Shown: positions 1 through 15,772 of the stretch, piece after piece
Layout: each line of letters opens with the position of its first letter
How positions within the stretch are numbered: the first letter of the stretch is position 1
Source of the DNA: Myxococcota bacterium
GTDB taxonomy: Bacteria > Myxococcota_A > UBA9160 > PR03
DNA length: 15,772 bases
NCBI GenBank assembly: GCA_030066475.1
Contig: JASJBO010000179.1
Location: 1 to 15,772 of the forward strand
Reading direction: 5' to 3'
The notes under the pieces: generated by a model
What the model was told of the DNA's origin: nothing
Seen by the model: the letters and a program-made list of their open reading frames with translations, nothing else
Database searches by the model: none
Translations under genes and position numbers: made by a program

Positions 1-2190
<2,190 letters not shown>

Positions 2191-2226
2191 CTACGCGGGT
2201 CGTCTCGGGGATTCCAGAGCCTGAAA

Positions 2227-2324
2227 CGCGAAACCCTCTCCGGCCGGGCTCGGCGGGAGAGGGTTTCGCGTGGCGACGATCTGGCGGCGCGCCTAGCCCT
2301 CTCCCGCCCCGGTAAGGAGCAGGC
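2227..2324 (-). promoter_or_regulatory. leuA transcription attenuator: four mutually exclusive RNA segments
   Basis: Four segments can be read in the minus-strand transcript. Segment 1 (2324-2316, gcctgctcc) overlaps three consecutive Leu codons of the leader. It pairs 8 of 9 positions, including one G-U, with segment 2 (2304-2296, ggagagggc), which ends next to the leader stop codon. Segment 2 in its wider form (2308-2297, ggcgggagaggg) pairs perfectly over 12 bases with segment 3 (2263-2252). Segment 3 also forms the 5' arm of a perfect 15-bp stem (2270-2256) with segment 4 (2241-2227) around a 14-base loop. This is the classic 1:2 / 2:3 / 3:4 logic. A ribosome stalled on Leu codons frees segment 2 to pair with 3. 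A ribosome that finishes the leader covers segment 2, so the 3:4 hairpin forms. The hairpin is not followed by a strong U tract, so how it terminates is open; many high-GC terminators lack one. Confidence 0.75.
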
Positions 2325-2370
2325 CCCGAAGGTCGAGGAGGCCGAGCGCGAGGTTCCGTCGGATCGCCAT
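2293..2370 (-). CDS. leuL: leucine-rich leader peptide of leuA
   Basis: A 25-codon ORF opens at ATG 2370 and stops at TAG 2293-2295, 141 bases before the leuA start. It encodes eight leucines, at positions 7, 9, 11, 12, 14, 17, 18 and 19, including the run Leu-Leu-Leu encoded by CTG CTC CTT. An AGGG sequence sits seven bases upstream of the ATG. Composition, size, position and overlap with the attenuator stems all match amino-acid biosynthetic leader peptides. Its role would be to measure charged tRNA-Leu supply by ribosome stalling, not to make a functional protein. The symbol leuL is used by analogy with enterobacterial leu operons, because such peptides are not conserved in sequence. Confidence 0.75.
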   Translation of the reverse strand: MAIRRNLALGLLDLRGLLLTGAGEG

Positions 2371-2381
2371 GATTCGCCCTG

Positions 2382-2408
2382 AGTAGATCACATCGGCGGC
2401 CCGGTCAA
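2382..2408 (-). promoter_or_regulatory. candidate promoter of the leuA leader transcript
   Basis: On the minus strand there is TTGACC (2408-2403), a 15-base spacer, then TCTACT (2387-2382), which is preceded by TG one base away and so forms an extended -10. The -35 box matches the sigma-70 consensus in five of six positions and the -10 in four of six. The spacer is two bases short of ideal, which extended -10 promoters tolerate. The predicted start would lie only about five bases before the leader ATG, so the leader mRNA would have almost no 5' UTR. Confidence 0.45.
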
Positions 2409-2441
2409 CCCGCTGGAGCCGGGCGAACGCCTGCGCGCCCT

Positions 2442-3653
2442 TCAGCGCGCCCTCAGGCGCAGCAGGGCGGGCGCCTCGCCGCCCAGCGCGAGCTCGGACT
2501 GGCCGTCGCCGTCCGCGTCGATCACGGCGAAGCCGAAGCCGCCCGGCCCGATGCGGCGGCGGCGCCAGCGTCCGTCCGGCGCCGGGGTCCATTGGTACAC
2601 CGCCTCGTTGCCCTGCCCCACCAGCTCGACGCGTCCGTCGCCGTCCAGGTCCGCCACCGCGAGCTGGCCCACGCTGTAGTCGGGCACCTGGTCGACCGCC
2701 TCGGCGGCGAACCCGCCCGCGCCGTCCGGCTCCGCGCAGGTGACCCGCCCGCGTCCCTCGTCGCGGTAGCGCCAGTGCCAGCCGTCGCCGTAGCAGACGC
2801 GCCGGCCCCGCTCGGGCAGGTCGAGCACCGCGAGGCTGCGGACACCGCGGAACGTGGGCAGCGGCGTGCGCGTGCCGTCGTCGGCCAGGGCGAACAGGTC
2901 GCCGTCGGACTTGGTGGCGTCGCCGTAGGGCCGGCCCACGAACAGCCGCAGGGGCGCCGCGTCGTCGGGCAGGCGGCCGGCGGCGAGCGAGGCACCCATC
3001 CGGATCGCGTACAGCTCGCGCTCGGTCCAGCGATCGCCGGCGCGCCGGGCGAAGGCACCGCGCACTTCGTACTTCGAGCGGAACGCGGCGTAGAGGATGC
3101 CAGGGCCCGCCGGCGGATCGAGCGTCGCGACCGACACCTGCGAGAACTGCGCGCGCGAGGTGCGCGGCTCGGCGACGACGTCCTCCAGCAAGGCACCGGG
3201 CGGCGCGCCCGCCGTGCGATACGCCACCAGTACGGCCGGCGCGTCGCGCCGGTCGCGGTGCGCACCCCAGCCCACGAGGACGTCGTCGTGACCGTCTCCG
3301 TCCACGTCGCCCGAGGCGATCGCCGTGGCGCCGCCGCGCGACGCCGCGGTCCAGAGCACGGCGGGCTCGGCACCCGCGCGCAGCACGGCGAGCTCGCGCG
3401 CCGAGGCCACCACCAGCTCGTCGCGCCCGTCGCGGTCGAGGTCGACGCGCGCCACCCGCGCGTTGGGCTCGGCCGCGTAGCCGAGCGGCAGCAGCTCGAC
3501 GCCCGGTGCCGGCGTGCTAACGACCGCCGGCGCCAGCGCGCGCGCCGGCTCGGGCACGGGCGCCAGCGCGGACTCGTCCGGCCGCTCGCAGGCGGGAAGC
3601 ACGGCCGCACCAAGCCCGGCCCAGAGCGCGAAGACGCAGCGCCAGTTGCGAAT
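2442..3653 (-). CDS. FG-GAP/VCBS-repeat lipoprotein, probable ATT start
   Basis: The protein is a secreted beta-propeller-type protein of unknown ligand. Four calcium-loop motifs are visible: DLDRDGRDELVVA, DVDGDGHDDVLVG, DLDGDGRVELVG and DADGDGQSELALG, spread along the chain as in FG-GAP/VCBS blades. The first standard start is GTG at 3602, but that places the lipobox LPAC at residues 2-5 with no signal peptide. In-frame codons upstream encode a basic start and a hydrophobic stretch (RNWRCVFALWAGLGAAVLPAC). This opens at an ATT codon (3653-3651), with GGGGAGGA (3668-3661) seven bases before it. From ATT the product is 403 residues with the lipidation Cys at 22. The ATT start is inference; the FG-GAP assignment is seen directly. 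The gene is divergent from the desaturase and is followed by the leuA leader promoter. Confidence 0.8.
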   Translation of the reverse strand: MRNWRCVFALWAGLGAAVLPACERPDESALAPVPEPARALAPAVVSTPAPGVELLPLGYAAEPNARVARVDLDRDGRDELVVASARELAVLRAGAEPAVLWTAASRGGATAIASGDVDGDGHDDVLVGWGAHRDRRDAPAVLVAYRTAGAPPGALLEDVVAEPRTSRAQFSQVSVATLDPPAGPGILYAAFRSKYEVRGAFARRAGDRWTERELYAIRMGASLAAGRLPDDAAPLRLFVGRPYGDATKSDGDLFALADDGTRTPLPTFRGVRSLAVLDLPERGRRVCYGDGWHWRYRDEGRGRVTCAEPDGAGGFAAEAVDQVPDYSVGQLAVADLDGDGRVELVGQGNEAVYQWTPAPDGRWRRRRIGPGGFGFAVIDADGDGQSELALGGEAPALLRLRAR

Positions 3654-3726
3654 GGACTGCTCCTCCCCGGACGATCGGGCGCCCCGGCGGGTGCCGCCTT
3701 CCGCACCCGCAGGCTCGCCGCTTTCA

Positions 3727-3765
3727 CCGAACTTTGACGCAGCGCCGGTGGTTTTGCCGAACTTT
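3727..3765. promoter_or_regulatory. paired 9-bp boxes (CCGAACTTT) in the divergent intergenic region
   Basis: CCGAACTTT occurs at 3727-3735 and again at 3757-3765, exactly 30 bp apart, which is close to three helical turns. Similarity extends outward as TTT-NN-CCGAACTTT-N-AC. The pair lies between the divergent lipoprotein and desaturase genes, about 75-110 bases before the desaturase ATG. Same-face spacing suggests a cooperative regulator site. TTGACG (3734-3739) overlaps the first box and could be a -35, but no convincing -10 follows at 17 bases. Function is inferred. Confidence 0.4.
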
Positions 3766-3838
3766 CACAGACGTGCGCGGTCGCGGTGCCGACTGACTCC
3801 TATGTTTCCGTCGGCCCGCGCCCCCAATTGGAGGATCG

Positions 3839-4777
<939 letters not shown>

Positions 4778-4868
4778 GAAGAGGGCTTCTGGGGCAGCGC
4801 TGGCCCGTAGCGTCGGCGCTTCGATGGGGGGCGTCGCCGTAGGCGGCCTGGGTGGAGCCAGGACGCAG

Positions 4869-5573
4869 TCAGAGCCTGGAACGCCCGCCCGGTACCTCCG
4901 CCGGGTCGACGAGCCCGTAGCGGCGCCAGCCGCTACGCAACAGCCAACTCCGTGGAAGCGCTACCTCGCGCAAGCCAGGTGGTCTCGCCCCCCGCGGCCT
5001 CCTCTTCCACCCTGCGAACCACCGCCCCGAAGACGCCTCGTCGAGCCTCACCGGCGGCGCCTGCCCCCGTCGCTCGCGCCAGTGCTTGCGCGTATTCAGC
5101 AGCACGTACGCCAGCGCATTGCGCACCTCACGCGGCGTCCGCAGCAGGTGCAGGTGGTAGCGCCCGTCGAGCACGCGCCCGCTGCGCGCGAACACGCGGT
5201 TCACCGCACGCGCCAGACGCGCCGAGATCGACTTCATCCCCCGTCCCAGCGCCTGCTTCCCGGCCGCCTCGACGATCAGGTGGACGTGGTCGCGCTGCAC
5301 CGAGTAGTGCGCCACACGGAACTCGCCGCGCTCGCAGGCCTTGCGGAGCGACGCACGGAAGTCGGCGACGAAGCGGCGCGTACGCAGAGAGGGGATCTCC
5401 TCGCGAACGCGAATCGTCACGTGCGCCGGGCACCCCCTCGGCACGCCCGCGCGCCGCACGTGGTGGACAGTCCCGCGCCTGCGCACGATTGGCCGCCCGG
5501 CCCCCGGCCGGGACCCACCATGCCCGTTGCGGGTGCGCTTGCGATGGTCGTGAAAAGAAATCTGCGTGGCCAC
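4869..5573 (-). CDS. rayT: REP-associated tyrosine transposase (RAYT, Y1/HUH IS200-like)
   Basis: RAYTs are single-copy HUH nucleases thought to cleave and move REP-type palindromic repeats as single-stranded DNA. The 234-residue product has an N-terminal GGSRPGAGRP element (19-28), typical of one RAYT subgroup. HVTIRVREEIPSL is at 51-63, and the HUH site is in DHVHLI with His96 and His98. The candidate nucleophile is Tyr156 in AYVLLNTRKH. The C-terminal tail is arginine-rich. The best start is GTG at 5573; no clear ribosome site precedes it, and the DNA around the start (about 5530-5590) is unusually AT-rich for this window. No terminal inverted repeats or target duplication were found, which is normal for this family. 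The short palindrome at 4917-4936 and the tandem repeats at 7286 and 15586 are candidate partners, but that link is inference. Confidence 0.88.
   Translation of the reverse strand: MATQISFHDHRKRTRNGHGGSRPGAGRPIVRRRGTVHHVRRAGVPRGCPAHVTIRVREEIPSLRTRRFVADFRASLRKACERGEFRVAHYSVQRDHVHLIVEAAGKQALGRGMKSISARLARAVNRVFARSGRVLDGRYHLHLLRTPREVRNALAYVLLNTRKHWRERRGQAPPVRLDEASSGRWFAGWKRRPRGARPPGLREVALPRSWLLRSGWRRYGLVDPAEVPGGRSRL
4917..4936. repeat. GTAG-capped perfect palindrome in the 3' end of the transposase gene
   Basis: GTAGCGGC, a four-base loop gcca, then GCCGCTAC form a perfect 8-bp stem. Both strands therefore begin the hairpin with GTAG, the tetranucleotide that classical REP elements carry next to their stem. 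It lies inside the coding sequence for the segment RSGWRRYG, which I recall as conserved in related transposases, so it may simply reflect codons. Confidence 0.4.
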
Positions 5574-5690
5574 TTGATTTATGCTGTGTCACTCACGTTA
5601 CGCGATGTGGCGCAACCCTCGCCCGGCCGCGAGCGCCAAGGGCGCCTGCAACGACGCCGTGAACTCCCGCGCCCCACGCACGCACCGCGT

Positions 5691-5780
5691 GAACCACCCA
5701 ACCCTCAAGCCACCACCCTCCCAGAAGCCCGCTTCCCCCCTCCCGAAGCCGCCACCCCAGCCCGATCTTGACAGCCCCCC
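5691..5780 (+). promoter_or_regulatory. C-rich, G-poor tract upstream of the SnoaL-like lipoprotein
   Basis: By hand count these 90 bases contain 51 C and only 12 G on the plus strand, whereas neighbouring DNA has near-balanced G and C. The tract ends about 24 bases before the ATG at 5804. C-rich, G-poor, weakly structured RNA is the known signature of Rho loading sites. If the tract is transcribed, it could make the downstream gene Rho-sensitive or terminate read-through. It could also be a mutational or strand-bias effect. The rest of the 5574-5803 gap shows no gene. Confidence 0.3.
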
Positions 5781-5803
5781 CACACCCGAGGAAAGCTGCC
5801 CCC

Positions 5804-6337
5804 ATGCCTCCCCTCCCCGCCCAGACGCGCGCCGCCGACGCCCGCCGGCGCGCAGAGCCAGCCGGGCTCGTGAGGCGGGGGCTCGCGCTGGCGTTCGCGC
5901 TGCTGGCGGGCTGCGCCGCCGGCGGCAGCCCCTCGAGCGCCGACCGGGCCGCGCTGGCGCGCGCTCACGAACGCGAGATGGAGGCGCTCCGCGCCGGCGA
6001 CCTGGCGCGCTTCGAGCGCGCCTTCGCCGACGGGGCGGTGATCGTCTCGTCCGACGGCCGGACGCTGGTGGGCAAGCCCGAGATCCTGGCGAGCTACCGC
6101 GGCATCTTCGCGGCGGGGCGCTCCGATCCGAGCACCGAGATCCTGGACGTCGTGGTGAGCGGCGACTGGGCCCTGGAGCGCTTTGCGTTCTCCACCCGCG
6201 TCGAGCCCGCCGACGGCAGTGCGCCCTTCACCGTGCACGGGGTCGGCGTGCACGTCTACCGGCGCGGCGCCGACGGCATCTGGCGCATCGCCTACGACAC
6301 GTTCCAGGAAGGCCCTCCGCCCGCTCCGCCGCGCTGA
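5804..6337 (+). CDS. SnoaL-like/DUF4440 lipoprotein of unknown function
   Basis: The 177-residue protein starts with a long basic segment and a hydrophobic stretch ending in the lipobox LLAGC, putting the lipidated Cys at residue 37. The mature part begins with an Ala/Glu-rich helix and a NTF2-like fold signature: a MEALRAGDLARFERAFADGA helix, VIVSSDGRTLVGKPEIL, then beta strands ending DGIWRIAYDTFQ. This is the typical layout of DUF4440/SnoaL-like calcium/calmodulin-kinase-association-type domains. No catalytic residues can be assigned. ATG 5804 is chosen because GAGGAAAG (5788-5795) lies eight bases upstream. An in-frame TTG at 5768 would add a Pro-rich stretch with no ribosome site. It is followed by a 116-base gap and the stress protein on the same strand. 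Confidence 0.75.
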   Translation: MPPLPAQTRAADARRRAEPAGLVRRGLALAFALLAGCAAGGSPSSADRAALARAHEREMEALRAGDLARFERAFADGAVIVSSDGRTLVGKPEILASYRGIFAAGRSDPSTEILDVVVSGDWALERFAFSTRVEPADGSAPFTVHGVGVHVYRRGADGIWRIAYDTFQEGPPPAPPR

Positions 6338-6348
6338 CCACTCAACTT

Positions 6349-6364
6349 GGCCGGGCGACCGGCC
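6349..6364. terminator. short GC hairpin downstream of the SnoaL-like gene
   Basis: GGCCGG, loop gcga, CCGGCC forms a perfect 6-bp stem starting 12 bases after the stop codon. There is no T tract, so its activity as a terminator is uncertain; a stable GNRA-type tetraloop is formed if it is transcribed. Confidence 0.25.
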
Positions 6365-6440
6365 GATCCGTCCGGCATGCGAGTGCGACCTCGGAACCGT
6401 CACCGGAGCTCGACGGCGCTGGCATCGCCGCGCGCGCTGC

Positions 6441-6446
6441 TACGCT
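6441..6446 (+). promoter_or_regulatory. candidate -10 box placing transcription start at the usp start codon
   Basis: TACGCT is followed by exactly seven bases and then the GTG start of the stress-protein gene. No ribosome site is seen and no -35 is recognisable. The same geometry is seen at 11825-11838, so leaderless transcription is plausible for both. Confidence 0.25.
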
Positions 6447-6453
6447 GCGCGCT

Positions 6454-7284
6454 GTGAGCGAGCCCGCCGACGTCCCGTTCGTGTCCTCGGTCCTGCACCC
6501 CTCCGACTTCTCGCTCGCGAGCCGCTCGGCGTTCGCCCACGCGCTGGCGATCGCGCTGTTGCGCCAGACCGGACTCACGTTGCTGCACGCGAACCGGGGC
6601 GAGCCCGACTGGAAGCGCTTCCCGGCCGTGCGCGGAACGCTCGAGCGCTGGGGACTGCTTGCACCCGGAAGCCCCCGTTCGGCCCTGATGCAGGAGCTGC
6701 AGCTGCGGGTCGAGAAGGTGGCGATCGAGTCCGACCGCCCCCTGCCCGCGATCCTCGAGTATCTGGAGCAGAGCCCCGCCGATCTGCTGGTGTTGGCGAC
6801 GGCGGGCCGCAACGGCCTGCCCCGCTGGCTCCACCGCTCGGTGGCCGAGCCGGTCGCCCGCCACTCACGCACGCTCACGCTCTTCGTGCCCGAGGGCGCG
6901 CCGGGCTTCGTCGATGCGGACACCGGCCGGCTGTCGCTGCACCGCGTCGTCATCGCCGTCGACCACGAGCCCGACCCGACCCGCTCCCTCGTCTACGCCA
7001 TGCGCGCCGCCCGCGCCCTCGGCGACGAACGCGTCGAGATGGAGCTGCTGCACGTGGGCGAGGAACCGCCGCGGCTGACGCCTCCGGAAGACCCGCAGTG
7101 CGTCTGGACCGAGAGCCGCCGCCTGGGCGACCCCGTCGAGGCGATCGCCGGCGCCGCTCGCACGGCCGACCTGGTCGTGATGACCACCGCGGGTCACCAG
7201 GGGGTGCTCGATGTGCTGCGCGGGAGCACCACCGAGCGCGTGCTCCGCCGCGTCTCCTGCCCCCTGATGGCGGTGCCGGCTTAG
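6454..7284 (+). CDS. tandem-domain universal stress protein (UspA family)
   Basis: The 276-residue product contains two Usp folds. Domain 1 (about 8-145) begins SSVLHPSDFSLASRSAFAHA and ends LATAGRNGLPRWLHRSVAEP. Domain 2 (about 157-276) begins LHRVVIAVDHEPDPTRSL and ends MTTAGHQGVLDVLRGSTTER. The GxxG...GS nucleotide-binding signature is recognisable in domain 2. Domain 1 has R-S in place of G-S, so only the second half may bind ATP. Usp proteins are cytosolic stress-response or signalling proteins and no specific partner can be named. GTG 6454 is chosen because the protein then begins directly before the first beta strand. The long upstream open frame is a shadow of the neighbouring lipoprotein gene. 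A 92-bp-class repeat begins one base after its stop codon. Confidence 0.88.
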   Translation: MSEPADVPFVSSVLHPSDFSLASRSAFAHALAIALLRQTGLTLLHANRGEPDWKRFPAVRGTLERWGLLAPGSPRSALMQELQLRVEKVAIESDRPLPAILEYLEQSPADLLVLATAGRNGLPRWLHRSVAEPVARHSRTLTLFVPEGAPGFVDADTGRLSLHRVVIAVDHEPDPTRSLVYAMRAARALGDERVEMELLHVGEEPPRLTPPEDPQCVWTESRRLGDPVEAIAGAARTADLVVMTTAGHQGVLDVLRGSTTERVLRRVSCPLMAVPA

Positions 7285-7285
7285 G

Positions 7286-7426
7286 GGACTTCGCTCGCCT
7301 GCGGCTCGCTGCGCGCGCCTGCGGCGCTTGCGGGGTGCCCGCGTAGGGACTTGGTGCCGGGCGGAGGCGGCCTGATGGACTTCGCTCGCCTGCGGCTCGC
7401 TGCGCGCGCCTGCGGCGCTTGCGGGG
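7286..7426 (+). repeat. tandem structured repeat, version A (one full and one partial copy)
   Basis: The first unit is 7286-7376 (91 bp). A second copy starts at 7377 and is identical for about 50 bases, then diverges after 7426. Each unit begins GGACTTCGCTCG and contains three small hairpins. In copy 1 they are GCC-tgc-GGC (7297-7305), GCGCC-tgc-GGCGC (7315-7327) and GCGGG-gtg-CCCGC (7330-7342), the last followed directly by GTAG. The array starts one base after the usp stop codon, reads in the same direction as that gene and ends 31 bases before the convergent mltF stop. It is the same family as 15586-15772. A REP/BIME-like or 3'-end RNA role is possible. Confidence 0.85.
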
Positions 7427-7457
7427 CGTGGTTCGAGGGAGTGCCAGCGAAGCGGCG

Positions 7458-8960
7458 TTAGTGGCCCACTGCGTTCCTGCGCTCCTCGAGCTCCGCGAAG
7501 GCGCGGCGGTAGGCCACGTAGTAGCGGTAGATGTTCGAGACGTAGCGCACCGGCTCGCGCGACACCTGGGCGGCGACCACCAGCTCGACGTTGCGGAACC
7601 AGCGGTCGGGGTCGAGGCCGCGCTCGGCCGCCACCTCGCGCAGCCGGCGGATGCGGGTCGGGCCGGCGTTGTAGGCCGCCATCGTGAACAGCGTGCGCTC
7701 GAAGGGGTCGAGATCGGGGTCGGAGAAGTAGCGGTCGCGCAGCACGCTCAGGTACTTCGCGCCCGCGTGGATGTTGTTCTCGGGGGTGTGGAAGTCCTGG
7801 ATCCCCAGCCCCTTCGCGGTGCTGGGGAGCACCTGCATGATGCCCACGGCGCCGGCCTGGCTGCGGGCCTTCGGATCGAAGCGCGACTCCTGGTACGCGA
7901 AGCTCGCCAGCAGCAGCCAGTCCAGGTCGTACTGCTCGCCGTAGGTCCGGAACAGCTCGACGAGCCCCTCGAGCTGCCCGAAGGGGCCCGCGTCGAGTGC
8001 CCGGCGCGCCAGCTCGGCGTCGTTGGTGTAGCGGTTCACCAGGACGTTTCCGATCAGGGTGCCTCGCTTGTGCTTCGCGACGAAGGCGTCGACCAGCTCG
8101 CGGAGCCGGGGGCTCTGCTTGCGGATCGCGAGCGCGATCGCGCGGCCCTCGCCCACGGCCACGTCCTCGTGCACGCGGATGTGCTCGAACACCTGCGACC
8201 ACAGCTCCAGCTTGTGGTCGTCCACCACCGTCATCGGCCCCAGGCCGGCGTCGAGCATCGCCAGGATGTCGTGGTCTTCCAGCCGGGGGTCGGCCTCGAC
8301 GATGTCGATCGGGTCGCGCCCCTCGGCGTCGAAGCGCTCGTTCAGCGCGCGCAGGCTCTCGAAGTAGCTGGAGTCGCGTCGCACGGTCACTTCGTGGCCC
8401 GACAGGTCGTCGAGGCTGCGGATCTCGGGCGAGTCGGGCCCGGTCACCAGCAGCTCGCGCGCCCCCTCGGTGAAGGGCGACGAGAAGTCGACGAGGCGCT
8501 GCCGCTCGGGCGTCACGGTCAGGTTGGCGAAGGCGATGTCGCCGTAGCCGTCGACGAGGTAGGGCAGGATCTGATCGCGGCGCACCGGCAGGATCGTGAT
8601 CTTGAGGTGCCGGGCCGGCTTGCCCAGCCGCTTGCGGGCGAACTTCTCCATCAGGCGCGTCGCCTCGTAGACCCCGCCACGCTGCTCGCCCCGGTCGATG
8701 AAGTAGGAGCCCAGGGTGTAGGCGGTGAGCACGCGGATCTCATGGCGCTCGAGCATGCCGTCGAGGTCGCCCATCCACGGCTCCGCGAGGGCCGGCCAGA
8801 GCTGCTCGAAGGGCGGCCGCTCCTCCTCTTCGACGGGCGATTCGGCGGGGGTGGCCTGCTCGGTCGGGGCCGGGGCCCCGTCGTTCCCGCCGCAGGCGAG
8901 CAGCGCCAGCAGCAGGCCGTACGCGGCGCCGGCGGAGAGCACCGCGGACCGCCTAGCCAT
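7458..8960 (-). CDS. mltF: membrane-bound lytic murein transglycosylase F (MltF-like lipoprotein)
   Basis: The enzyme cleaves the MurNAc-GlcNAc bond of peptidoglycan with formation of 1,6-anhydroMurNAc, at the periplasmic face of a membrane. The 500-residue protein has a lipoprotein signal with the lipobox LLAC and Cys23. A Pro/Glu-rich linker follows, then a solute-binding type-3 domain (about 73-310, from EIRVLTAYTLGSYF through the GDIAFANLTVTPER block). The C-terminal SLT domain runs from about 344 to 480. SLT motifs are FAYQESRF with the probable catalytic Glu358, GIMQVLPSTA and AAYNAGP. This two-domain order defines MltF. The start ATG at 8960 overlaps the last codons of the upstream channel gene by eight bases (ATGGCTAG), so translational coupling is likely. 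Confidence 0.93.
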   Translation of the reverse strand: MARRSAVLSAGAAYGLLLALLACGGNDGAPAPTEQATPAESPVEEEERPPFEQLWPALAEPWMGDLDGMLERHEIRVLTAYTLGSYFIDRGEQRGGVYEATRLMEKFARKRLGKPARHLKITILPVRRDQILPYLVDGYGDIAFANLTVTPERQRLVDFSSPFTEGARELLVTGPDSPEIRSLDDLSGHEVTVRRDSSYFESLRALNERFDAEGRDPIDIVEADPRLEDHDILAMLDAGLGPMTVVDDHKLELWSQVFEHIRVHEDVAVGEGRAIALAIRKQSPRLRELVDAFVAKHKRGTLIGNVLVNRYTNDAELARRALDAGPFGQLEGLVELFRTYGEQYDLDWLLLASFAYQESRFDPKARSQAGAVGIMQVLPSTAKGLGIQDFHTPENNIHAGAKYLSVLRDRYFSDPDLDPFERTLFTMAAYNAGPTRIRRLREVAAERGLDPDRWFRNVELVVAAQVSREPVRYVSNIYRYYVAYRRAFAELEERRNAVGH

Positions 8961-11427
8961 CCCCTCGCTCCGACGAGCGCTCGATCCGCAGCGCGTTCTT
9001 CATGTTGATGTCGCGCTGCGGGAACGGGATGGTGATGCCGGCCTCCGTGAGCGCCTCGTTGATCGCGACGCCGAGGTCGCTGGCCACCGGCATCCAGCCG
9101 CGTTCGCTCTGCGTGAAGGCGCGGAGCTGCAGGTCGTAGTAGCTGTCGCCGAAGCCGATGAACAGCGCCTCGGGAGGCGGATCGTCCAGCACCTCCGGGT
9201 TGGCGCGCGCGACCCCCTCGAGGAGCTCGAGGACCTCCCGCAGCGGGGTCCCGTAGGCAACGCCCACGGGAATGATCACGCGCCGCTTGCGGTCGGAGAG
9301 CGTCCAGTTGATTACCTGCGACGAGAGCAGGTCGCCGTTGGGCACGATCACATCGGCGCCGTCGAAGGTGCGCACGCGGCTGGCGCGGATCCCGATCGTG
9401 GAGATCACGCCGAGCAGGTCGCCGAGCTGCACGCGGTCGCCCACGCGCAGCGGGCGCTCGAACAGCAGGATCGCGCCCGACACGAAGTTGTTCACCACGT
9501 TCTGCAGGCCGAAGCCGATGCCGACGCCGAGCGCGCTGAGCAGCAGCGCGACGCGGTCGAGCGAGAAGCCCAGCAGCGACAGCGCGCCGACGAAGCCGAT
9601 CACCAGGATCACGTAGCGGGTGAAGGTGGCGAGCGCGAAGGGAACGCCCGGGCGCATCGCGAAGCGCGGGAACACCTCGTGGTCGAGCACCAGGCTGACC
9701 AGGCGCGACAGCAGCCAGGCCAGCCAGAGCACCAGCGCGAAGCTCACGACGCCGCCCAGCGAGAGCGCCTCTCCCAGGCTCGCCCCGAGCACCAGCCCGA
9801 GGGCCTCTCGCAACGGGTCCCACAGGGAGATGGCGCGCAGCAGCAGGTAGGACCAGGCGGCGAAGGCGCCCAGCCTCAGGGCGCGGCTCAGCTGGCGCAG
9901 CGCCGAGTCGCGGTGGATCTCGAGCAGGCGGCTGTGGCTGAGCGGGCGCCGCCCGATCGCGGCCTGCGCGATCACCTCGAGCATGCGCGCGGCAGCCAGG
10001 AATCCCAGGCCCATGAGCGAGCCCCAGATCGCCACGACGGCAAGGCGCTCCGCCAGGTTGCTATAACCGATCAGCTCGGCGAGCAGGCCCGCGCCGAACG
10101 AGAGCAGCGCGATCCGCAGCCACGCGTCGAGCAGCCGGAACCAGAGGCTGCTGCGCAGCTCGGGGGGGATCCGGCGCAGCTGCTGGATGCGGCGGAGCCA
10201 CAGGGTGCCGGCGAGTCCGAGGGCGAGCTCGACCACCAGCAGGCCGCGGGTCATCAGGTCGAACCCCGGGAAGGCGATCCGGAACGAGTCGGTGAGGGCG
10301 AGCAGCGCGAGCCCGCTGAGCGGCGGCCGCAGCGCGAGAGGGGCGATCGCGCGAATCACCAGCCACCAGACCGGAACGATCCCCAGGAAGGTCAGGAGCT
10401 GGATGCCCAGCTGGCGATCGGCACGGACGAGCGGCGTCAGCACGAGCCCGATCAGGATGGCGACTGCCCAGGGATGGGCCAGCGCCCGCTCCGGCGTCAC
10501 CCCGACCTCCGAGACGTCCGGAACCTCGCCCACCGTCGCGCGCGCCCGTCGCAGCGCCACCACCAGCACCAGGATCAGGACCAGCTGGAGGATGAGGAGG
10601 TCGACCTCGCGATCGAAGTCGTCGATGAAATCGCTCCCGATCGCGGCGAAGCCCTCGAGACCCGCCGTCACCTCGGCGCGCAGCACGTCGATGCCGAGCT
10701 CGAGCTGCCACAGCGGCGGCGCCTGGCGCTCGAACACGGCGGAGTCGATCTCCGCCTTGGCCTTGCGCACGCGCTCGAGCGCGGCGTCGACCGGATCGCG
10801 CTTGGCGGCCGCGCGGGTCTGGAGCTCGAGCGCGCCGTTGCGGCTCCGGGCGAGGCGCTTCTGCAGCGCCTCCAGCTCGCGCAGCGTCTCGTTGACGAGC
10901 GAGAGCACGCCCGCCGGCGCCTGCGCCGCCCGGGCCGCCGCGCGCGAGCGCCTCCAGAGGTCGATCTGGCCGTCCACCTCGCTCAGCCAGCCGTCGAGCT
11001 GGTCGGCGCGTTCGGTGAGCTGCTCGTCGATGGCGTCGAGGCGCGACGCGACTTCCTTCCAGAGGCCTCGTACGCCCTCGAGGTCGGAGCTCGTGGCGCG
11101 ACGCGCCACCGCCTGCTCGAGACGCTCGCTGGCCCGCTCGATGTCGGCAGCGACCGCGTCGAGCGCCTCGCGGACCTCGTCTCCCACCGCCTCGTCGGTG
11201 CGCCGCTGCTCGATCGCCGACAGCCGGGAGCCGATGTCCTTCGCCCTGCTCGACAGCTCGGTGACGGGAATCTCGGGAGGCGGGGGCGGCGGCGTCTCGG
11301 GGGCCGACGCCGCGGGCCGGGCGCCGGGCGCCTCGGGCTGGGCGCCCGCCGTCGGGATCCCGGCGAGCAGCCAGATCCACGCGACGCCTACCAGCGCCAG
11401 AGCGCGCCGGGCTCTGCGGGGAAGCAT
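8953..11427 (-). CDS. large MscS-family mechanosensitive channel (MscK/YjeP-like)
   Basis: The 824-residue protein opens with a signal peptide (MLPRRARRALALVGVAWIWL, processed near GAQ) and a proline-rich linker with six consecutive prolines near residue 50. A long charged periplasmic segment (about 60-270) looks coiled-coil. Multiple hydrophobic helices fill about 275-640, and the MscS core follows at about 616-800. In the core, the pore-helix region LLLSALGVGIGFGLQNVVNN precedes FVSGAILLFERPLRVGDRV, then VRTFDGADVIVPNGDLLSSQVINW, all diagnostic of MscS beta-domain channels. Large members with a periplasmic N-domain release solutes during hypo-osmotic shock. CGGAGGG lies upstream of the ATG and supports this start. 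It forms an overlapping pair with mltF, linking turgor sensing with wall cleavage by context only. Confidence 0.93.
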   Translation of the reverse strand: MLPRRARRALALVGVAWIWLLAGIPTAGAQPEAPGARPAASAPETPPPPPPEIPVTELSSRAKDIGSRLSAIEQRRTDEAVGDEVREALDAVAADIERASERLEQAVARRATSSDLEGVRGLWKEVASRLDAIDEQLTERADQLDGWLSEVDGQIDLWRRSRAAARAAQAPAGVLSLVNETLRELEALQKRLARSRNGALELQTRAAAKRDPVDAALERVRKAKAEIDSAVFERQAPPLWQLELGIDVLRAEVTAGLEGFAAIGSDFIDDFDREVDLLILQLVLILVLVVALRRARATVGEVPDVSEVGVTPERALAHPWAVAILIGLVLTPLVRADRQLGIQLLTFLGIVPVWWLVIRAIAPLALRPPLSGLALLALTDSFRIAFPGFDLMTRGLLVVELALGLAGTLWLRRIQQLRRIPPELRSSLWFRLLDAWLRIALLSFGAGLLAELIGYSNLAERLAVVAIWGSLMGLGFLAAARMLEVIAQAAIGRRPLSHSRLLEIHRDSALRQLSRALRLGAFAAWSYLLLRAISLWDPLREALGLVLGASLGEALSLGGVVSFALVLWLAWLLSRLVSLVLDHEVFPRFAMRPGVPFALATFTRYVILVIGFVGALSLLGFSLDRVALLLSALGVGIGFGLQNVVNNFVSGAILLFERPLRVGDRVQLGDLLGVISTIGIRASRVRTFDGADVIVPNGDLLSSQVINWTLSDRKRRVIIPVGVAYGTPLREVLELLEGVARANPEVLDDPPPEALFIGFGDSYYDLQLRAFTQSERGWMPVASDLGVAINEALTEAGITIPFPQRDINMKNALRIERSSERGDG

Positions 11428-11450
11428 CTCGAACGCCCTCCGTCCGGGGC

Positions 11451-11456
11451 ATCTTA
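11451..11456 (-). promoter_or_regulatory. candidate -10 for the channel-mltF pair
   Basis: Minus-strand TAAGAT lies 23 bases before the channel ATG, with the ribosome site between them. It matches the -10 consensus at four of six positions. The sequence 16 bases further upstream is TTACGC, a poor -35. Confidence 0.3.
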
Positions 11457-11495
11457 GCGGCGGCCCCCGAGGGCGTAACCTGAGGGCCCGGCCAC

Positions 11496-11516
11496 CCGTC
11501 GTGAAGGTGACGACGG
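11496..11516 (+). promoter_or_regulatory. inverted repeat upstream of the short sigma-like gene
   Basis: CCGTCGT, loop gaaggtg, ACGACGG is a perfect 7-bp inverted repeat ending two bases before the GGAGGAAG ribosome site of the 11529 gene. A weak -10-like TAACCT is at 11476-11481. It could be an operator or a 5'-UTR hairpin affecting ribosome access. Confidence 0.35.
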
Positions 11517-11528
11517 ACGGAGGAAGCC

Positions 11529-11774
11529 ATGCCCGACGGGGTGATCGACGAGCAGCTCGCGCAGGGGGTCGAGGCCGCCTGGCACCTCTTCCTCGACCAC
11601 GTGGAGCCGCTGCGGCCCGAGCTGTTCGAGGAGCAGGACGGGCGCGTGGCGCGCATCTTCGACTACTGCTTCTGCCCCGACCTGGTGGGCTGGGTGGCGG
11701 GCGAGCTGGGGCTGCGGTTCCGCGCGGTGGGGTATCGCTTTCGGCCGCGGGTCTTCGAGCGGGCGGGCTCGTAG
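11529..11774 (+). CDS. 81-residue protein resembling a sigma factor with its middle deleted
   Basis: The ORF is well formed: ATG with GGAGGAAG upstream, and a typical high-GC codon pattern. The N-terminal part, VEAAWHLFLDHVEPLRPELF, resembles the first helix of certain long ECF-type sigma factors, which continue YRYCRxLT...WDAEDLVQD. The following part, DGRVARIFDYCFCPDLVGWV, and the ending LGLRFRAVGYRF resemble the extreme C-terminus of the same proteins, after their SnoaL-like tail. Here the two ends are joined directly after LRPELF. The sigma-2 and sigma-4 DNA-binding regions, roughly 200 or more residues, would be absent. This comparison is from memory of the family, not a search. If correct, it is an in-frame internal-deletion derivative that cannot act as a sigma factor. 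Otherwise it is a small protein of unknown function. The next gene follows 63 bases later. Confidence 0.6.
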   Translation: MPDGVIDEQLAQGVEAAWHLFLDHVEPLRPELFEEQDGRVARIFDYCFCPDLVGWVAGELGLRFRAVGYRFRPRVFERAGS

Positions 11775-11824
11775 CCGTGGCGCAAGTGCTTGCCGGCGGC
11801 CGCAGCCCAAGGGCTTCGGCCGGC

Positions 11825-11830
11825 TATCCT
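11825..11830 (+). promoter_or_regulatory. candidate -10 box for a leaderless phosphotransferase mRNA
   Basis: TATCCT is followed by exactly seven bases and then ATG 11838, so transcription would begin at or next to the start codon. No Shine-Dalgarno sequence lies between the box and the ATG, and no good -35 is visible. Confidence 0.35.
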
Positions 11831-11837
11831 CCCGCCG

Positions 11838-12917
11838 ATGCCGGCACCGCGCGGTCGCGACTACGAGCTCACCCGCAAGCGCCTCACCGAGTGGCTCGCG
11901 ACGAAGCTCCCCGAGGCCAGCGATCTGAGCGTGTCGCCGCTCTCGGGCCCGGACGCCACCGGCTTCTCGAGCGACACGCTGCTGTTCGACCTCGACTACC
12001 AGCAGGGCGGGCGCGCGGAGCAGCTCCCACTCGTGTGCCGGCTCGAGCCGACCGGCTTCGGCGTGTTCCCCGAGTACGACGTCGGGCTGCAGTACCGCAT
12101 CCTCTCGATCCTCGGGTCCACCGACGTGCCGGTGCCGCGCACCTGGTGGTCGGAGCCGAGTGACGCGGTGCTGGGCGCACCGTTCTACCTGATGGAGCGG
12201 GTGGAGGGGCGCATCCCCGGCGACCGGCCGCCCTACCACCAGGACGGCTGGATGACCGAGATCGAGCCCGCGGAGCAGGCCGCGATCTGGTGGAGCGGTC
12301 TCGAGACGCTGGCCCGCATCCACCGCGTCGACTGGCGCGCGCGCGGTCTGGAGTTCCTCGCGTCGCGACACCCGGGGCGGGATGCGCTGGCGCGGCAGCT
12401 CGCGGAGTGGCGCGCCTATCTGGAGTGGGCCGCCCGGGGCCGGCCCCAGCCGACCTGCGACGCGGCCATGGCGTGGCTCGAGGCGAACCGGCCCGACGCG
12501 CCCGGGGACGTGAGTCTGTGTTGGGGCGACTCGCGGATCGGCAACATGATCTTCCGGGACGGGCAGTGCCGCGCCGTGCTCGACTGGGAGATGGCGACGC
12601 TGGCGCCCCCCGAGCTGGACCTGGGCTGGTACCTGTTCATGGACCGGCACCACAGCGAGGGCATCGGGGCCGAGCGCCTGCCCGGCTTCCCGAGCCGCGA
12701 GGAGAGCGTCGCGCGCTACGAGACCTGGACCGGCCGGCGGGTTGCCGACCTGGAGTTCTACGAGGTGTTCGCCGGACTGCGCTTCGCGGCGATCATGTGC
12801 CGGCTGGCGCAACAGATGGTTCACTATGAGGTGCTGCCTGCCGATTCGGCATTCGAGCGGGACAACCCGGCCACGCACCTGCTGGCTCGCATCCTGAAGC
12901 TGCCGGCCCCGAGCTGA
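11838..12917 (+). CDS. aminoglycoside-phosphotransferase-fold kinase (ACAD10/11-like)
   Basis: The 359-residue protein has the APH/choline-kinase fold. FYLMERVEGRIPGDRPPY matches the hinge and substrate-lip region. The catalytic loop CWGDSRIGNMIF has the Brenner-type Asp and downstream Asn, with Trp where many members have His. VLDWEMATLAPPELDLGWYL supplies the metal-binding Asp. In bacteria this subfamily is usually found near acyl-CoA metabolism genes and may phosphorylate hydroxyacyl substrates. Nothing in this window confirms a substrate, and antibiotic resistance should not be assumed. ATG 11838 is preferred over an in-frame upstream start at 11790 because the extra 16 residues are Ala/Pro-rich and unlike the family, and a -10 lies just upstream. 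Confidence 0.88.
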   Translation: MPAPRGRDYELTRKRLTEWLATKLPEASDLSVSPLSGPDATGFSSDTLLFDLDYQQGGRAEQLPLVCRLEPTGFGVFPEYDVGLQYRILSILGSTDVPVPRTWWSEPSDAVLGAPFYLMERVEGRIPGDRPPYHQDGWMTEIEPAEQAAIWWSGLETLARIHRVDWRARGLEFLASRHPGRDALARQLAEWRAYLEWAARGRPQPTCDAAMAWLEANRPDAPGDVSLCWGDSRIGNMIFRDGQCRAVLDWEMATLAPPELDLGWYLFMDRHHSEGIGAERLPGFPSREESVARYETWTGRRVADLEFYEVFAGLRFAAIMCRLAQQMVHYEVLPADSAFERDNPATHLLARILKLPAPS

Positions 12918-12947
12918 GCCTCCCCGTGGGTGGGGCGGCCGGGGTGG

Positions 12948-12953
12948 TATAAT
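12948..12953 (+). promoter_or_regulatory. perfect TATAAT -10 box of the large lipoprotein gene
   Basis: TATAAT stands out in very GC-rich DNA, 30 bases after the phosphotransferase stop and 26 bases before ATG 12980. The expected start would be near 12960, giving a roughly 20-base 5' UTR. No -35 resembling TTGACA lies 16-18 bases upstream, so an activator or another sigma factor may be involved. Confidence 0.55.
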
Positions 12954-12979
12954 CCCGCGACTCGATTCCGGGGTTCACG

Positions 12980-15586
12980 ATGCTGCGAGGCGCCTTCCGG
13001 CGCGGCCGCAGGGGCCGGTCGCGCCTCCTGCTGATCGCTCTCTCGCTGGGACTGATGGGTGTCGGGTCGTGCGGCCCGGCGCGGATCTCGTTCGGCATCC
13101 CGACGCCTGCCGGGCTGCTGCCGGTTCGGATCCTGCTCGAGTCGGGCGTCGACCCCACGCAGGTCACCGTGACGCTCGACGGCGCCGACGTGACCGCCGC
13201 CTTCGCGGCCGAGCCGGGCGTTCTCGCCGGCGCGCTGCCGCTGCCTGCGCCCGGCCCGCACCACCTGGCGGTGACGCGGCTGCTGCCGATGTTCGGCATC
13301 CCGCTCACGGTCGGGCGCTCGTTCGAGTCGCCGGCCCCCGTGCCGGCGGTGCTCCGCGTCGACCCGCCGCTCGAGACCGGCCCGCTGCCGCGCTCGGCCT
13401 GGCTTCGCTTCACGCTCGACGGCGGCGCCGACGAGACGCAGACCCGGAGCTGGGGCTTCGGGGTCGAGTGCGACGGCGCGCGGGTGCCGCGGCGCGCGAG
13501 CGTCGCCTCGGACGGCACCGTGGTCGTGAATCCGCGGCCCGAGCTGCCCGCCGGCGCGAGCTGCCGGGTGGCCTGGCGCGCCGCCGACGGCAGCGTGGAC
13601 GGCGTCGCGTTCGAGGTGGCCGCCGACGCGGCCGGAGCCGCCGCCGAGGCGATCTACGACCGCAGCGCGCCCGAGAACCTGGCGCCCTTCCCCGACGACT
13701 TCTTCCTGCGCGAGGACTCCGCCAGCGGCGAGCGCGCGATCGACATCCCGCCCCCCGACTTCGCCGACGCCTTCCAGAACCAGACCTTCCGGGCCCTGGC
13801 CAACCCGATCCAGGGCATCGATGGCTGGAGCCGCCAGCCGCCGATCATCGTCACCTTCTCCCACGAGCTGGCGCCCGAGGCCGTGCCCGCCGACGCCTTC
13901 GCCGCGGCGGACCCGTTCGCACCGATCTCGCTGATCGACATCGATCCCGACAGCCCGGAGCGGGGCCGGCGCATCCCGTACCGCATGCTGGTGCGCAGCG
14001 ACGCGGCGCCGGACGGCAGCACCGACCACGCCGCGCTGATCTTCCCCACCATCGACCTGCGCGAGCGCAACCAGTACGCGCTGGTGGTGACGCGGCGCGC
14101 CTTCGCGGCCGGCGAGCCGGGGCGTCCGTTCGGGCCGTCTCCGTTCTGGGCCCGGGTGGCGGGCCCGCCGCTGCCGGGCGAGGCGGCCGCGGTGACGCAG
14201 GCGCGCGAGTCGATCCTGCCGACGCTGGCCGCGCTCGAGGCGCTGCCGGAGCTGCCGATCCCCGTGGAGGACGTCGCGCTCGCCATCGGGATCCGCACCC
14301 GCACGCACCCCTCGGTGGACGACCTGGTGGAGATCAAGCGGCTGGCACTCGCCGCCGATCCGCCGGAGCTGATCCTGCCCGACATCGAAGACGACCCGTG
14401 TCCGGACCCCGACGCGTTCTGCATCGCGGTCGATCCCGACCGCGCGCTGGAGGTGCGGGGGCGCTTGGCGCTGCCGAACTTCCGCAGCCCGGGGCTCAAC
14501 CTGTTCGAGCGCGACCCGGCAACGGGCCTGCCGGTCCAGACGGGCACGAGCGAGGTCCCCTTCGTGATGACGCTGCCGGTGGAGGCGCTCGAGGGCCCGG
14601 TGATCCCGATCATGTACCAGCACGGCAACCCGGGCACGCCGCGCGAGCTGCTCGCGGAGTTCACCAATGGGCACCTCGACGATGCGGGCTTCGCGCTGAT
14701 GGGCATCCAGGACACGCTCAACCGCGAGGTCGGCATGGACATCGACCTGCAGGTGCAGGTGATCTTCTTCTTCGCCGTGCAGGCGGCGCAGCTCCCGGAC
14801 TACTGGAAGCAGACCGGCGCCGACATGATCCACTTCCTGCGCGCCATCGAGGGGATGGGCGACCTCGACCTGATGCACGAGGGGCCGGACGGTCTGCCTG
14901 CGATCGGACCGGACGGGATCCCGGAGATCGACCCGTCCACGATCCTGTACAAGGGCATCAGCGAGGGCGGCAACAACGCCGAGCGCTTCCTGCCGTTCGC
15001 CCCCGAGCTGCTGGCCGCCGTGCCGACGGTGGGCGGCGCGCGGCTGGCCGAGACGCTGATCCACCAGGCCGCCGACGACATCCTGGCGCAGATCGGGTTC
15101 TTCCTGCCGCAGATCCGGCCGGCCGAGCTGTGGGTGGGGATGTCGCTGTTCCAGGCCGGCTTCGACCCCCAGGACGGGCACACCTACCTGCGCCACCTGT
15201 ACCGCGAGCCGCTCACGCCGTTCCCCGGCTCCAGCGACACGGTGCCCCCGCACACGCTGTGGACCGAGGGCGTCGGCGACTCGCTGGTGCCGAACAACGC
15301 GAGCCGCGCCATGGCCCTCGAGCTGGGGATTCCGCACGTGGGTCCGGTGCAGGAGCCGGTTCCCGGGCTCGAGGTCGTGGCGCCGCCGCTCGCCGGGAAC
15401 CTGCCCGGCGGCATCACGGCAGGCTTCGTGCAGTTCGACCCCGCCACCACGCAGAGCTGCATCGACCGCCCGCAGCCCGAGGGCCACTACTGCCCGCAGA
15501 CCGCGCCCGAGGCGCAGGCGCAACGCCTGCACTTCCTCGAGAGTGCACTGACCGGCGCACCCGAGATCGTCGACCCGTTCTTGTAG
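12980..15586 (+). CDS. large secreted lipoprotein with C-terminal alpha/beta-hydrolase domain
   Basis: The 868-residue product has an arginine-rich start, a hydrophobic core and the lipobox VGSC, with Cys31 as the likely lipidation site. Residues of about 40-230 look like beta-rich Ig-type modules. About 245-370 resemble SbsA-type Ig-like segments (PPIIVTFSHELAPEAVPADAF, then LIDIDPDSPERGRRIPY). A C-terminal hydrolase-like region begins near VIPIMYQHGNPGTP. The nucleophile motif GISEGG puts Ser at 661, GVGDSLVP offers an acid at Asp767 and PEGHYC offers His836. Order and spacing fit an esterase/lipase triad, but the triad is predicted and the substrate is unknown. It is probably surface-exposed or periplasmic. 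The gene has its own -10 at 12948 and ends exactly at a tandem repeat array that shares the last base of its TAG stop. Confidence 0.8.
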   Translation: MLRGAFRRGRRGRSRLLLIALSLGLMGVGSCGPARISFGIPTPAGLLPVRILLESGVDPTQVTVTLDGADVTAAFAAEPGVLAGALPLPAPGPHHLAVTRLLPMFGIPLTVGRSFESPAPVPAVLRVDPPLETGPLPRSAWLRFTLDGGADETQTRSWGFGVECDGARVPRRASVASDGTVVVNPRPELPAGASCRVAWRAADGSVDGVAFEVAADAAGAAAEAIYDRSAPENLAPFPDDFFLREDSASGERAIDIPPPDFADAFQNQTFRALANPIQGIDGWSRQPPIIVTFSHELAPEAVPADAFAAADPFAPISLIDIDPDSPERGRRIPYRMLVRSDAAPDGSTDHAALIFPTIDLRERNQYALVVTRRAFAAGEPGRPFGPSPFWARVAGPPLPGEAAAVTQARESILPTLAALEALPELPIPVEDVALAIGIRTRTHPSVDDLVEIKRLALAADPPELILPDIEDDPCPDPDAFCIAVDPDRALEVRGRLALPNFRSPGLNLFERDPATGLPVQTGTSEVPFVMTLPVEALEGPVIPIMYQHGNPGTPRELLAEFTNGHLDDAGFALMGIQDTLNREVGMDIDLQVQVIFFFAVQAAQLPDYWKQTGADMIHFLRAIEGMGDLDLMHEGPDGLPAIGPDGIPEIDPSTILYKGISEGGNNAERFLPFAPELLAAVPTVGGARLAETLIHQAADDILAQIGFFLPQIRPAELWVGMSLFQAGFDPQDGHTYLRHLYREPLTPFPGSSDTVPPHTLWTEGVGDSLVPNNASRAMALELGIPHVGPVQEPVPGLEVVAPPLAGNLPGGITAGFVQFDPATTQSCIDRPQPEGHYCPQTAPEAQAQRLHFLESALTGAPEIVDPFL

Positions 15587-15772
15587 GACTTCGCTCGGCT
15601 TCGCCTCGCTGCGCGCGCCTGCGGCGCTTGCGGGGTGCCCGCGTAGGGACTTGGGTGCTGGGCGGAGGCGGCTTGGTGGACTTCGCTCGGCTTCGCCTCG
15701 CTGCGCGCGCCTGCGGCGCTTGCGGGGTGCCCGCGTAGGGACTTGGGTGCTGGGCGGAGGCGGCTTGGTGGA
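15586..15772 (+). repeat. tandem structured repeat, version B (two full copies, third begins at edge)
   Basis: Units at 15586-15677 and 15678-15769 are 92 bp each and identical to one another. The next copy starts at 15770, so the array continues beyond the window. The unit matches version A except for a few changes. In the first hairpin GCC-tgc-GGC becomes GGC-ttc-GCC, which keeps pairing. The second (GCGCC-tgc-GGCGC) and third (GCGGG-gtg-CCCGC then GTAG) hairpins are unchanged. The array begins in the last base of the hydrolase stop codon and has the same orientation as the gene. Confidence 0.88.

Follow-up and report, generated by a model that had tools for sequence, protein, structure and literature searches.

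A two-hairpin tandem repeat, probably mobile, in a Myxococcota-related lineage and its likeness to known palindromic elements

Introduction

Two described systems come closest to a short tandem repeat in contig JASJBO010000179.1 of the Myxococcota bacterium assembly GCA_030066475.1 (positions 1 to 15,772, hereafter the window, i.e. the whole 15,772-nt stretch analyzed). The first is the GTAG/CGTC type of repetitive extragenic palindromic (REP) sequence. In the available parts of PMC3733652 these REPs are mostly intergenic, lie between unidirectional or convergent genes near 3' ends, sometimes supply a TAG stop codon and are in some cases found inside genes, including DnaE2. The second is the group of Rickettsia palindromic elements (RPEs) which, according to the available sections of PMC10969869 and PMC2229807, insert in frame into unrelated conserved genes and add a family-specific peptide. 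A structural parallel comes from in vitro work: DNA hairpins with a GNA loop and two or more G-C pairs are unusually stable, as stated in the accessible portion of PMC4686876.

Here we analyze two arrays of the repeat, array 1 at 7286-7426 and array 2 at 15586-15772. The core of the repeat unit combines a near-constant and a hypervariable hairpin and recurs many times in related genomes. We consider it probable that the unit is a mobile repeat, non-autonomous and forming hairpins, which behaves much as REPs and RPEs do.

Results

Architecture of the repeat unit

Direct reading of the sequence shows that both arrays share a common unit, of 91 bp in array 1 and 92 bp in array 2, matching the unit of about 92 bp given in the initial annotation of the window. 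Within a locus the copies are identical: the partial unit of array 1 agrees with unit 1 across the shared 50 bp, and Tandem Repeats Finder reports array 2 with period 92, 100% matches and a score of 374. Between loci the unit differs at positions 13 (C/G), 16 (G/T) and 19 (G/C), all within the first stem-loop, besides minor linker changes. As the initial annotation had noticed, positions 13 and 19 represent a C-G to G-C swap and the third difference falls in the loop. The parts of the two arrays are as follows.

7286..7376, minus strand (the strand with the supported two-hairpin fold): array 1 unit 1, 91 bp, by direct reading
7293..7309, minus strand: hairpin 1 of array 1 copy 1, constant; GC-GA-GCC-GCA-GGC-GA-GC on the folding strand
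7311..7331, minus strand: hairpin 2 of array 1 copy 1, GCGCC-GCA-GGCGC with GC base and GCAAG edge; hypervariable among relatives
7332..7376, no strand: linker of array 1 unit 1; a GGCGGAGGC-like part of it also stands beside G041 copies (by eye)
7377..7426, minus strand: array 1 partial unit 2, 50 bp, complete core without linker
7384..7400, minus strand: hairpin 1 of array 1 copy 2
7402..7422, minus strand: hairpin 2 of array 1 copy 2
15586..15677, minus strand: array 2 unit 1, 92 bp
15593..15609, minus strand: hairpin 1 of array 2 copy 1, GC-GA-GGC-GAA-GCC-GA-GC
15611..15631, minus strand: hairpin 2 of array 2 copy 1
15678..15769, minus strand: array 2 unit 2, 92 bp, identical to array 2 unit 1
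15685..15701, minus strand: hairpin 1 of array 2 copy 2
15703..15723, minus strand: hairpin 2 of array 2 copy 2
15770-15772: three bases at the window end, possibly the start of a third array 2 copy

The folding strand is most likely opposite to the strand first described. Along it the core reads GCAAG, a variable palindrome, CGCGCA, GC-GA-GSC-GNA-GSC-GA-GC and GAAG; it spans 43 nt in the window and is longer where hairpin 2 is longer. Hairpin 1 is near-constant: its pairs covary, its triloop is GNA, and it contains two tandem G-A mismatches, which are known to form as sheared pairs.

Covariation supports both hairpins

Unless stated otherwise, counts refer to 177 distinct copies collected from the window and from fetched loci by a pattern with at most two mismatches; an earlier set held 90 copies at up to three mismatches. 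They come from the genomes G041 (64, of its 145), G002 (40), G001 (22), G017 (22), G003 (6) and G122 (3), from the window (4) and from loci without genome assignment (16); some of them (L068, L072, L099) are look-alikes that lack the palindrome. Because copies were found by pattern, the fixed positions seem more constant than they are; the CTTCG on the side before hairpin 1 is itself imposed by the pattern.

Pair 13/19 of hairpin 1 is Watson-Crick in 169/177 copies, a level reached in 0 of 2000 permutations; the other 8 copies break it. Since the pattern fixed some positions, we reran the search in G039 and G089 with a free middle, which is exempt from this bias and gave 139 matches. Pair 9/23 is Watson-Crick in 79/81 matches of G039 (47 C-G, 32 T-A) and 57/58 of G089, and pair 13/19 in 80/81 and 55/58; pair 14/18 barely varies among these matches and is hence of little informative value. 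The internal loop TC/TC (GA/GA on the folding strand) is unchanged in 75-76/81 and 56/58 matches, respectively; in one three-copy array it is AC/GT, which is able to pair.

Hairpin 2 varies from copy to copy and is mostly still self-complementary. Its segments were cut from 151/177 copies, segments with N excluded, and 115 are distinct; some are miscut by the edge rule (e.g. L052, L111), an error that lowers pairing. Of the 95 distinct segments that are long enough, 61 are fully paired over four pairs; dealing the arms among copies left 6.6 such segments on average and never more than 16. An alignment of 60 rows (A2), comprising distinct copies with hairpin-2 segments of 11-15 nt, has 95.2% of pair cells paired and a covariation score of 0.276; shuffles score 0.076, and slid partners do not exceed 0.036. 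RNAalifold, unaided, predicts the identical two hairpins from this alignment, in agreement with the pair counts. These values bear out the earlier proposal that the folded form matters.

Some features of hairpin 1 reappear in hairpin 2. A clean triloop is present in 42/59 distinct odd-length segments and is GNA on the folding strand in 24 of these 42. Five stems carry a 2x2 mismatch, three of them GA opposite AG, one of the three at the stem end. The edge CTTGC (GCAAG on the folding strand) was found in 121 of the 144 copies showing one of four allowed words.

The core recurs in many related genomes

The initial annotation proposed a search of relatives for the unit, and this search found the core many times per genome. 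BLAST placed the unit at dozens of sites in G001-G003, nearly all within its first ~60 bases, with the best matches in bases 1-48. A pattern for this head of the unit, allowing two mismatches, gave 32, 48 and 6 copies in G001, G002 and G003 and none in G004 and G005. At up to one mismatch the head is present in 37/90 genomes of the class of G001, with at least 10 matches in 20 of them, a single match in eight and a maximum of 145 in G041. A phylum sample contained it in 43/377 genomes, including six carriers outside the class set (G122 with 27, G134 with 8, G304 with 2 and G231, G326 and G354 with 1 each). The reversed control pattern had 0 matches in every genome scanned. Recurrence within each relative genome together with the empty control shows that the repeat does not arise by chance. 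It also dismisses, along with the 37/90 carrier genomes and the covariation, the idea that GC-rich simple sequence was merely duplicated in tandem with no family behind it, which the GC-rich unit with its short internal repeats might have suggested and which we regard as practically refuted.

Exact searches had 0 matches for a 31-mer of the unit in the genome contigs collection and for a 28-mer in viral contigs, and the plasmid and phage collections held no match to the unit. Rfam covariance models had no match at the copies (window at E up to 1; 8 loci at the gathering threshold). The initial annotation could name no family, and this stands for the sequence; in its behavior, on the other hand, the repeat matches REPs and RPEs.

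Phages may ferry the repeat between hosts. Two IMG/VR contigs, L175 (359-383, minus strand) and L176 (4697-4721, plus strand), contain the head, hairpin 2 and the CTTGC edge; they look similar around the repeat site by eye, and L176 encodes a terminase large subunit.

Variants of the repeat were seen as well. Many copies of G017 (L115-L133) have an extra module of ~45 nt, GCCGGGCCTCGTCCTCGCT...GGGCTTCCGGC, next to hairpin 1; in many cases an opposite-strand TAG precedes it by a few bases. Many copies of G041 (L135-L174) have another, upstream module, ACGGGCTCGATGATTCC...GGCGGAGGCACCCTTTCGA, which partly resembles the window linker. A look-alike sub-family (e.g. CGCCGCTCGCCTTCGGCTCGCTGCGCGGGAAACGGG), without the palindrome and edge, occurs in L068, L070 (4855-5000), L072 and L099 and is in tandem in L070.

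Copies prefer the space behind genes and the coding strand

Positions were classified with gene calls from a codon-usage script, a non-standard caller. Altogether 106/177 copies lie outside genes. Between tandem genes there are 55 sense and 14 antisense copies, between convergent genes 22 and between divergent genes 15, while sense genes contain 52 (27 internal, 17 near the C-terminal end, 8 near the N-terminal end) and antisense genes 7; a further 12 at locus edges are unclassified. Counted as 147 arrays or single copies, the distribution is 39 tandem sense, 12 tandem antisense, 20 convergent, 13 divergent, 47 in sense genes, 5 in antisense genes and 11 unclassified. Under a strict in-gene rule genes are depleted of copies (24/166, compared with 2030/3000 random sites).

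The folding strand is mostly the coding strand inside genes (47 sense versus 5 antisense) and is co-oriented with genes even between tandem genes (39 versus 12, p = 0.0002). The strand taken at first for the working one, which reads away from the TAG in the window, lacks support in that role: the other strand is the one that runs with the genes. In G017 the copies have no clear replication-strand pattern, as judged by eye. Sense copies stand directly behind tRNA-Glu (L060), tRNA-Val (L067), tRNA-Thr (L066) and the signal recognition particle (SRP) RNA (L111), all picked by eye; the L140 copy precedes a tRNA.

Stop codons were tabulated against the copies, as the initial annotation had advised. 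Stops of upstream sense genes lying within -6 to +4 of the element are TAG in 26/33 cases; background TAG usage is 134/364 called genes in the earlier loci, before G017 and G041 were added. The earlier view that the element is mobilised into, or selected at, gene 3' ends holds in so far as it is mobile-like, is concentrated at gene ends and outside genes and often touches a TAG, but 59/177 copies are inside called genes.

Close pairs within 250 nt are head-to-tail in 30/30 cases of the main set and opposite in 0; a few opposite-orientation pairs occur in the lists of other genomes (G020, G039). Head-to-tail periods, measured start to start, range from 44 to 158 bp and are divisible by 3 in 7/7 in-gene pairs (two of them in an antisense gene of G122) and in 12/23 other pairs.

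Predicted peptides of copies inside genes

Reading frames of the 52 in-gene sense copies fall into an ARSEPQASEV frame (35), an AQRxxxERS frame (15) and the third frame (2), one of the latter two, L087, starting at the stop itself. Five ARSEPQASEV-frame copies terminate the protein because their GTA loop makes CCG-TAG, a stop.

Several hosts are conserved enzymes. The glycerol-3-phosphate dehydrogenase GlpD has a 20-residue insert without counterpart in structure 3da1. DNA polymerase III alpha (L095) carries an insert, and a similar G041 protein (L155) has one in the same loop by eye. In an Ap4A phosphorylase-like protein two tandem copies separate the two stretches that were matched. Both G001 and G002 have the repeat in an acyl-CoA synthetase and in a formate-dehydrogenase-like protein. 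We aligned the two acyl-CoA synthetase queries with the best 120 of 7897 matches; a script found the motif in 7/122 sequences and an eighth was seen by eye, at places that vary slightly within one loop. A relative at 88% identity lacks the insert, and the site is empty in the DNA of G026 and G003.

Folding stability and terminator features

The window core as RNA forms both hairpins with an ensemble frequency of 0.85 but is not stabler than shuffles (z -0.5), and neither is the full unit as RNA on either strand (z -0.2 to +2.0). L111, a copy with a long hairpin 2, is far stabler than shuffles (z -5.8). With DNA parameters the inner stem of hairpin 1 is predicted in the window core, hairpin 2 differs and the stability is ordinary. 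A T-rich tract follows hairpin 1 in 0/176 copies and occurs on the other strand in 1/176, so that an intrinsic-type terminator finds no backing. Four terminator-like sites were detected in window 6500-15772, none within an array.

Genomic context of the two arrays

6453..7284, plus strand: gene 5' of array 1, TAG at 7282-7284; universal-stress-protein-like by eye only, with no Pfam or NCBIfam match
7458..8960, minus strand: convergent neighbor, a lytic transglycosylase with solute-binding domain, MltF-like, below the NCBIfam cut-off
12980..15586, plus strand: gene of an 868-aa protein before array 2

Both arrays dock at a TAG as initially described, the TAG of 6453-7284 being one base from array 1 and that of 12980-15586 giving its G to array 2. 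Array 2 follows the 868-aa gene and continues to the window end. Array 1 is placed in the 173-nt spacer of convergent genes, with the stop of 7458-8960 at 31 nt from the array end, and its orientation relative to one gene is therefore ambiguous; read along the folding strand, it is downstream of the 7458-8960 gene.

The few taxon labels among 120 homologs of the 868-aa protein are Proteobacteria, Myxococcota, Myxococcales and Myxococcaceae. Five relatives of the gene were found in genome contigs (L001-L005, 45-62% identity), and none has a repeat copy behind the orthologous stop. At the other end of the window, 3-482 (minus strand) encodes an incomplete reverse transcriptase/maturase of a group II intron (TIGR04416, 154 bits, cut-off 300), which runs off the window and overlaps the 3' end of the leuA gene at 454-2169 (minus strand).

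A Y1 transposase gene near array 1

At 4869-5573 (minus strand), 1.7 kb from array 1, the window encodes a Y1_Tnp protein (PF01797, IS200-like) with a match to REP_Tyr_transpos below threshold (47 bits, cut-off 80). PF01797 genes were found in 13/25 genomes searched; G007, G009, G011, G031 and G046 have the gene but no head. A RAYT as the mover is not supported, as such genes do not track head counts in the 25 genomes and no head is present in the 12 Y1 loci fetched of 34 places. Gene gaps are possible in metagenome-assembled genomes (MAGs), which limits this comparison of transposases with heads. By eye, GTAGCGGCGCC-like palindromes lie beside the gene; they are unrelated to the arrays.

Discussion

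The high copy numbers, the preserved folding, the orientation on the coding strand and the occupied and empty sites in homologous genes together point to an element that spreads. As a non-autonomous mobile repeat it would move or be copied through a folded single strand, GNA loops with G-C pairs being characteristic of very stable hairpins in single-stranded DNA, and insertion or survival would be favored on the coding strand. Slippage or recombination could then duplicate it head-to-tail, and copies would be retained where they are least harmful, behind genes and in tolerant loops.

Several observations weigh against this interpretation. Most of the genomes are MAGs, and mobility was not witnessed as it happened. 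Target-site duplication, which together with terminal inverted repeats marks MITEs, was not established, one site having been aligned. No PF01797 gene was found in G041, G039 and G017, which have 145, 67 and 23 heads, and there is no head in 12 fetched transposase loci (of 34 places listed). Eight of the 177 copies break pair 13/19 as a Watson-Crick pair. Stops of farther upstream sense genes are TAG in 26/47 cases too, so the preference at the element's edge is partly general in the set. Finally, the strand bias and the neighboring tRNA and SRP RNA genes also fit selection on the transcript.

The last point leads to the best of the alternatives, that the repeat is an mRNA 3'-end element under selection, whose hairpins block 3'-5' exonucleases or mark the trimming of Rho-terminated transcripts, in-gene copies being tolerated by-products. 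Co-orientation between tandem genes, the edge touching a stop, the copies behind stable RNA genes, the two-hairpin fold of the core RNA and the stability of L111 all agree with such a role. It is nevertheless unlikely, given the missing T-rich tracts, a window core no stabler than shuffles, the 52 copies within sense genes with 27 of them internal, the divergent gene pairs that flank 13 of the 147 arrays or single copies, and the patchy presence in the class.

Somewhat more doubtful is a mobile element of a categorically different sort, existing as folded single-stranded DNA. Its constant d(GNA)/tandem-GA minihairpin would be the recognition end, and snap-back copying would form the adjacent palindrome anew with every move, which would explain why hairpin 2 is variable yet self-complementary. 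The element would enter the coding, non-template strand while this is single-stranded in transcription, and such entry would account for the strand bias and the in-frame insertions. Integron attC sites and IS91/Helitron ends act as folded single strands and allow variable hairpins; their conserved boxes were not noticed here, by eye only.

We judge it improbable that the repeat is a REP family moved by a RAYT, a Y1 transposase, with 4869-5573 as the mover. The proximity of this gene to array 1 and its sub-threshold REP_Tyr_transpos match invite the idea, but no head flanks the gene directly, the 12 fetched Y1 loci of relatives are equally empty, high-copy genomes lack a detected gene and five gene-bearing genomes lack the head.

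The repeat shows that in-frame palindromic insertion, best known from Rickettsia, also takes place in a Myxococcota-related lineage. Its many copies, together with the empty sites and the strand bias, suffice to ask how such elements move, and the combination of a constant hairpin with a hypervariable palindrome gives a hint of how the copying step proceeds. The peptide ARSEPQASEV is likely to puzzle annotators of these genomes.

Comparison with known systems

We found no published description of the repeat in the open-access literature, a weak negative. Like REPs, it is a short palindromic repeat of high copy number, mostly intergenic and near gene 3' ends, with some copies in genes. Unlike REPs, it has two hairpins instead of one, the second stem being hypervariable; its hairpin edge is GCAAG, with no GTAG or CGTC; head-to-tail tandems prevail where inverted dimers prevail in REPs; and, in contrast to REPs with a RAYT, no linked RAYT was found in the 25 genomes and 12 fetched loci. 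It resembles RPEs, as far as the available sections describe them, in its in-frame insertion into conserved genes, to whose products it contributes a peptide, for instance ARSEPQASEV. It differs from them by a shorter core (RPEs measure 105-146 bp), by two adjacent hairpins in place of a long stem-loop and by copies that are more often outside genes. Hairpin 1 is like d(GNA) minihairpins, e.g. d(GCGAAGC), in having a GNA triloop closed by G-C pairs; in the accessible portion of PMC4686876 these are an in vitro motif, whereas the repeat is genomic. The kind of behavior is already known, because PMC3733652, in its available parts, reports identical preferences for GTAG/CGTC REPs, while the family and its build of one constant and one hypervariable hairpin look new.

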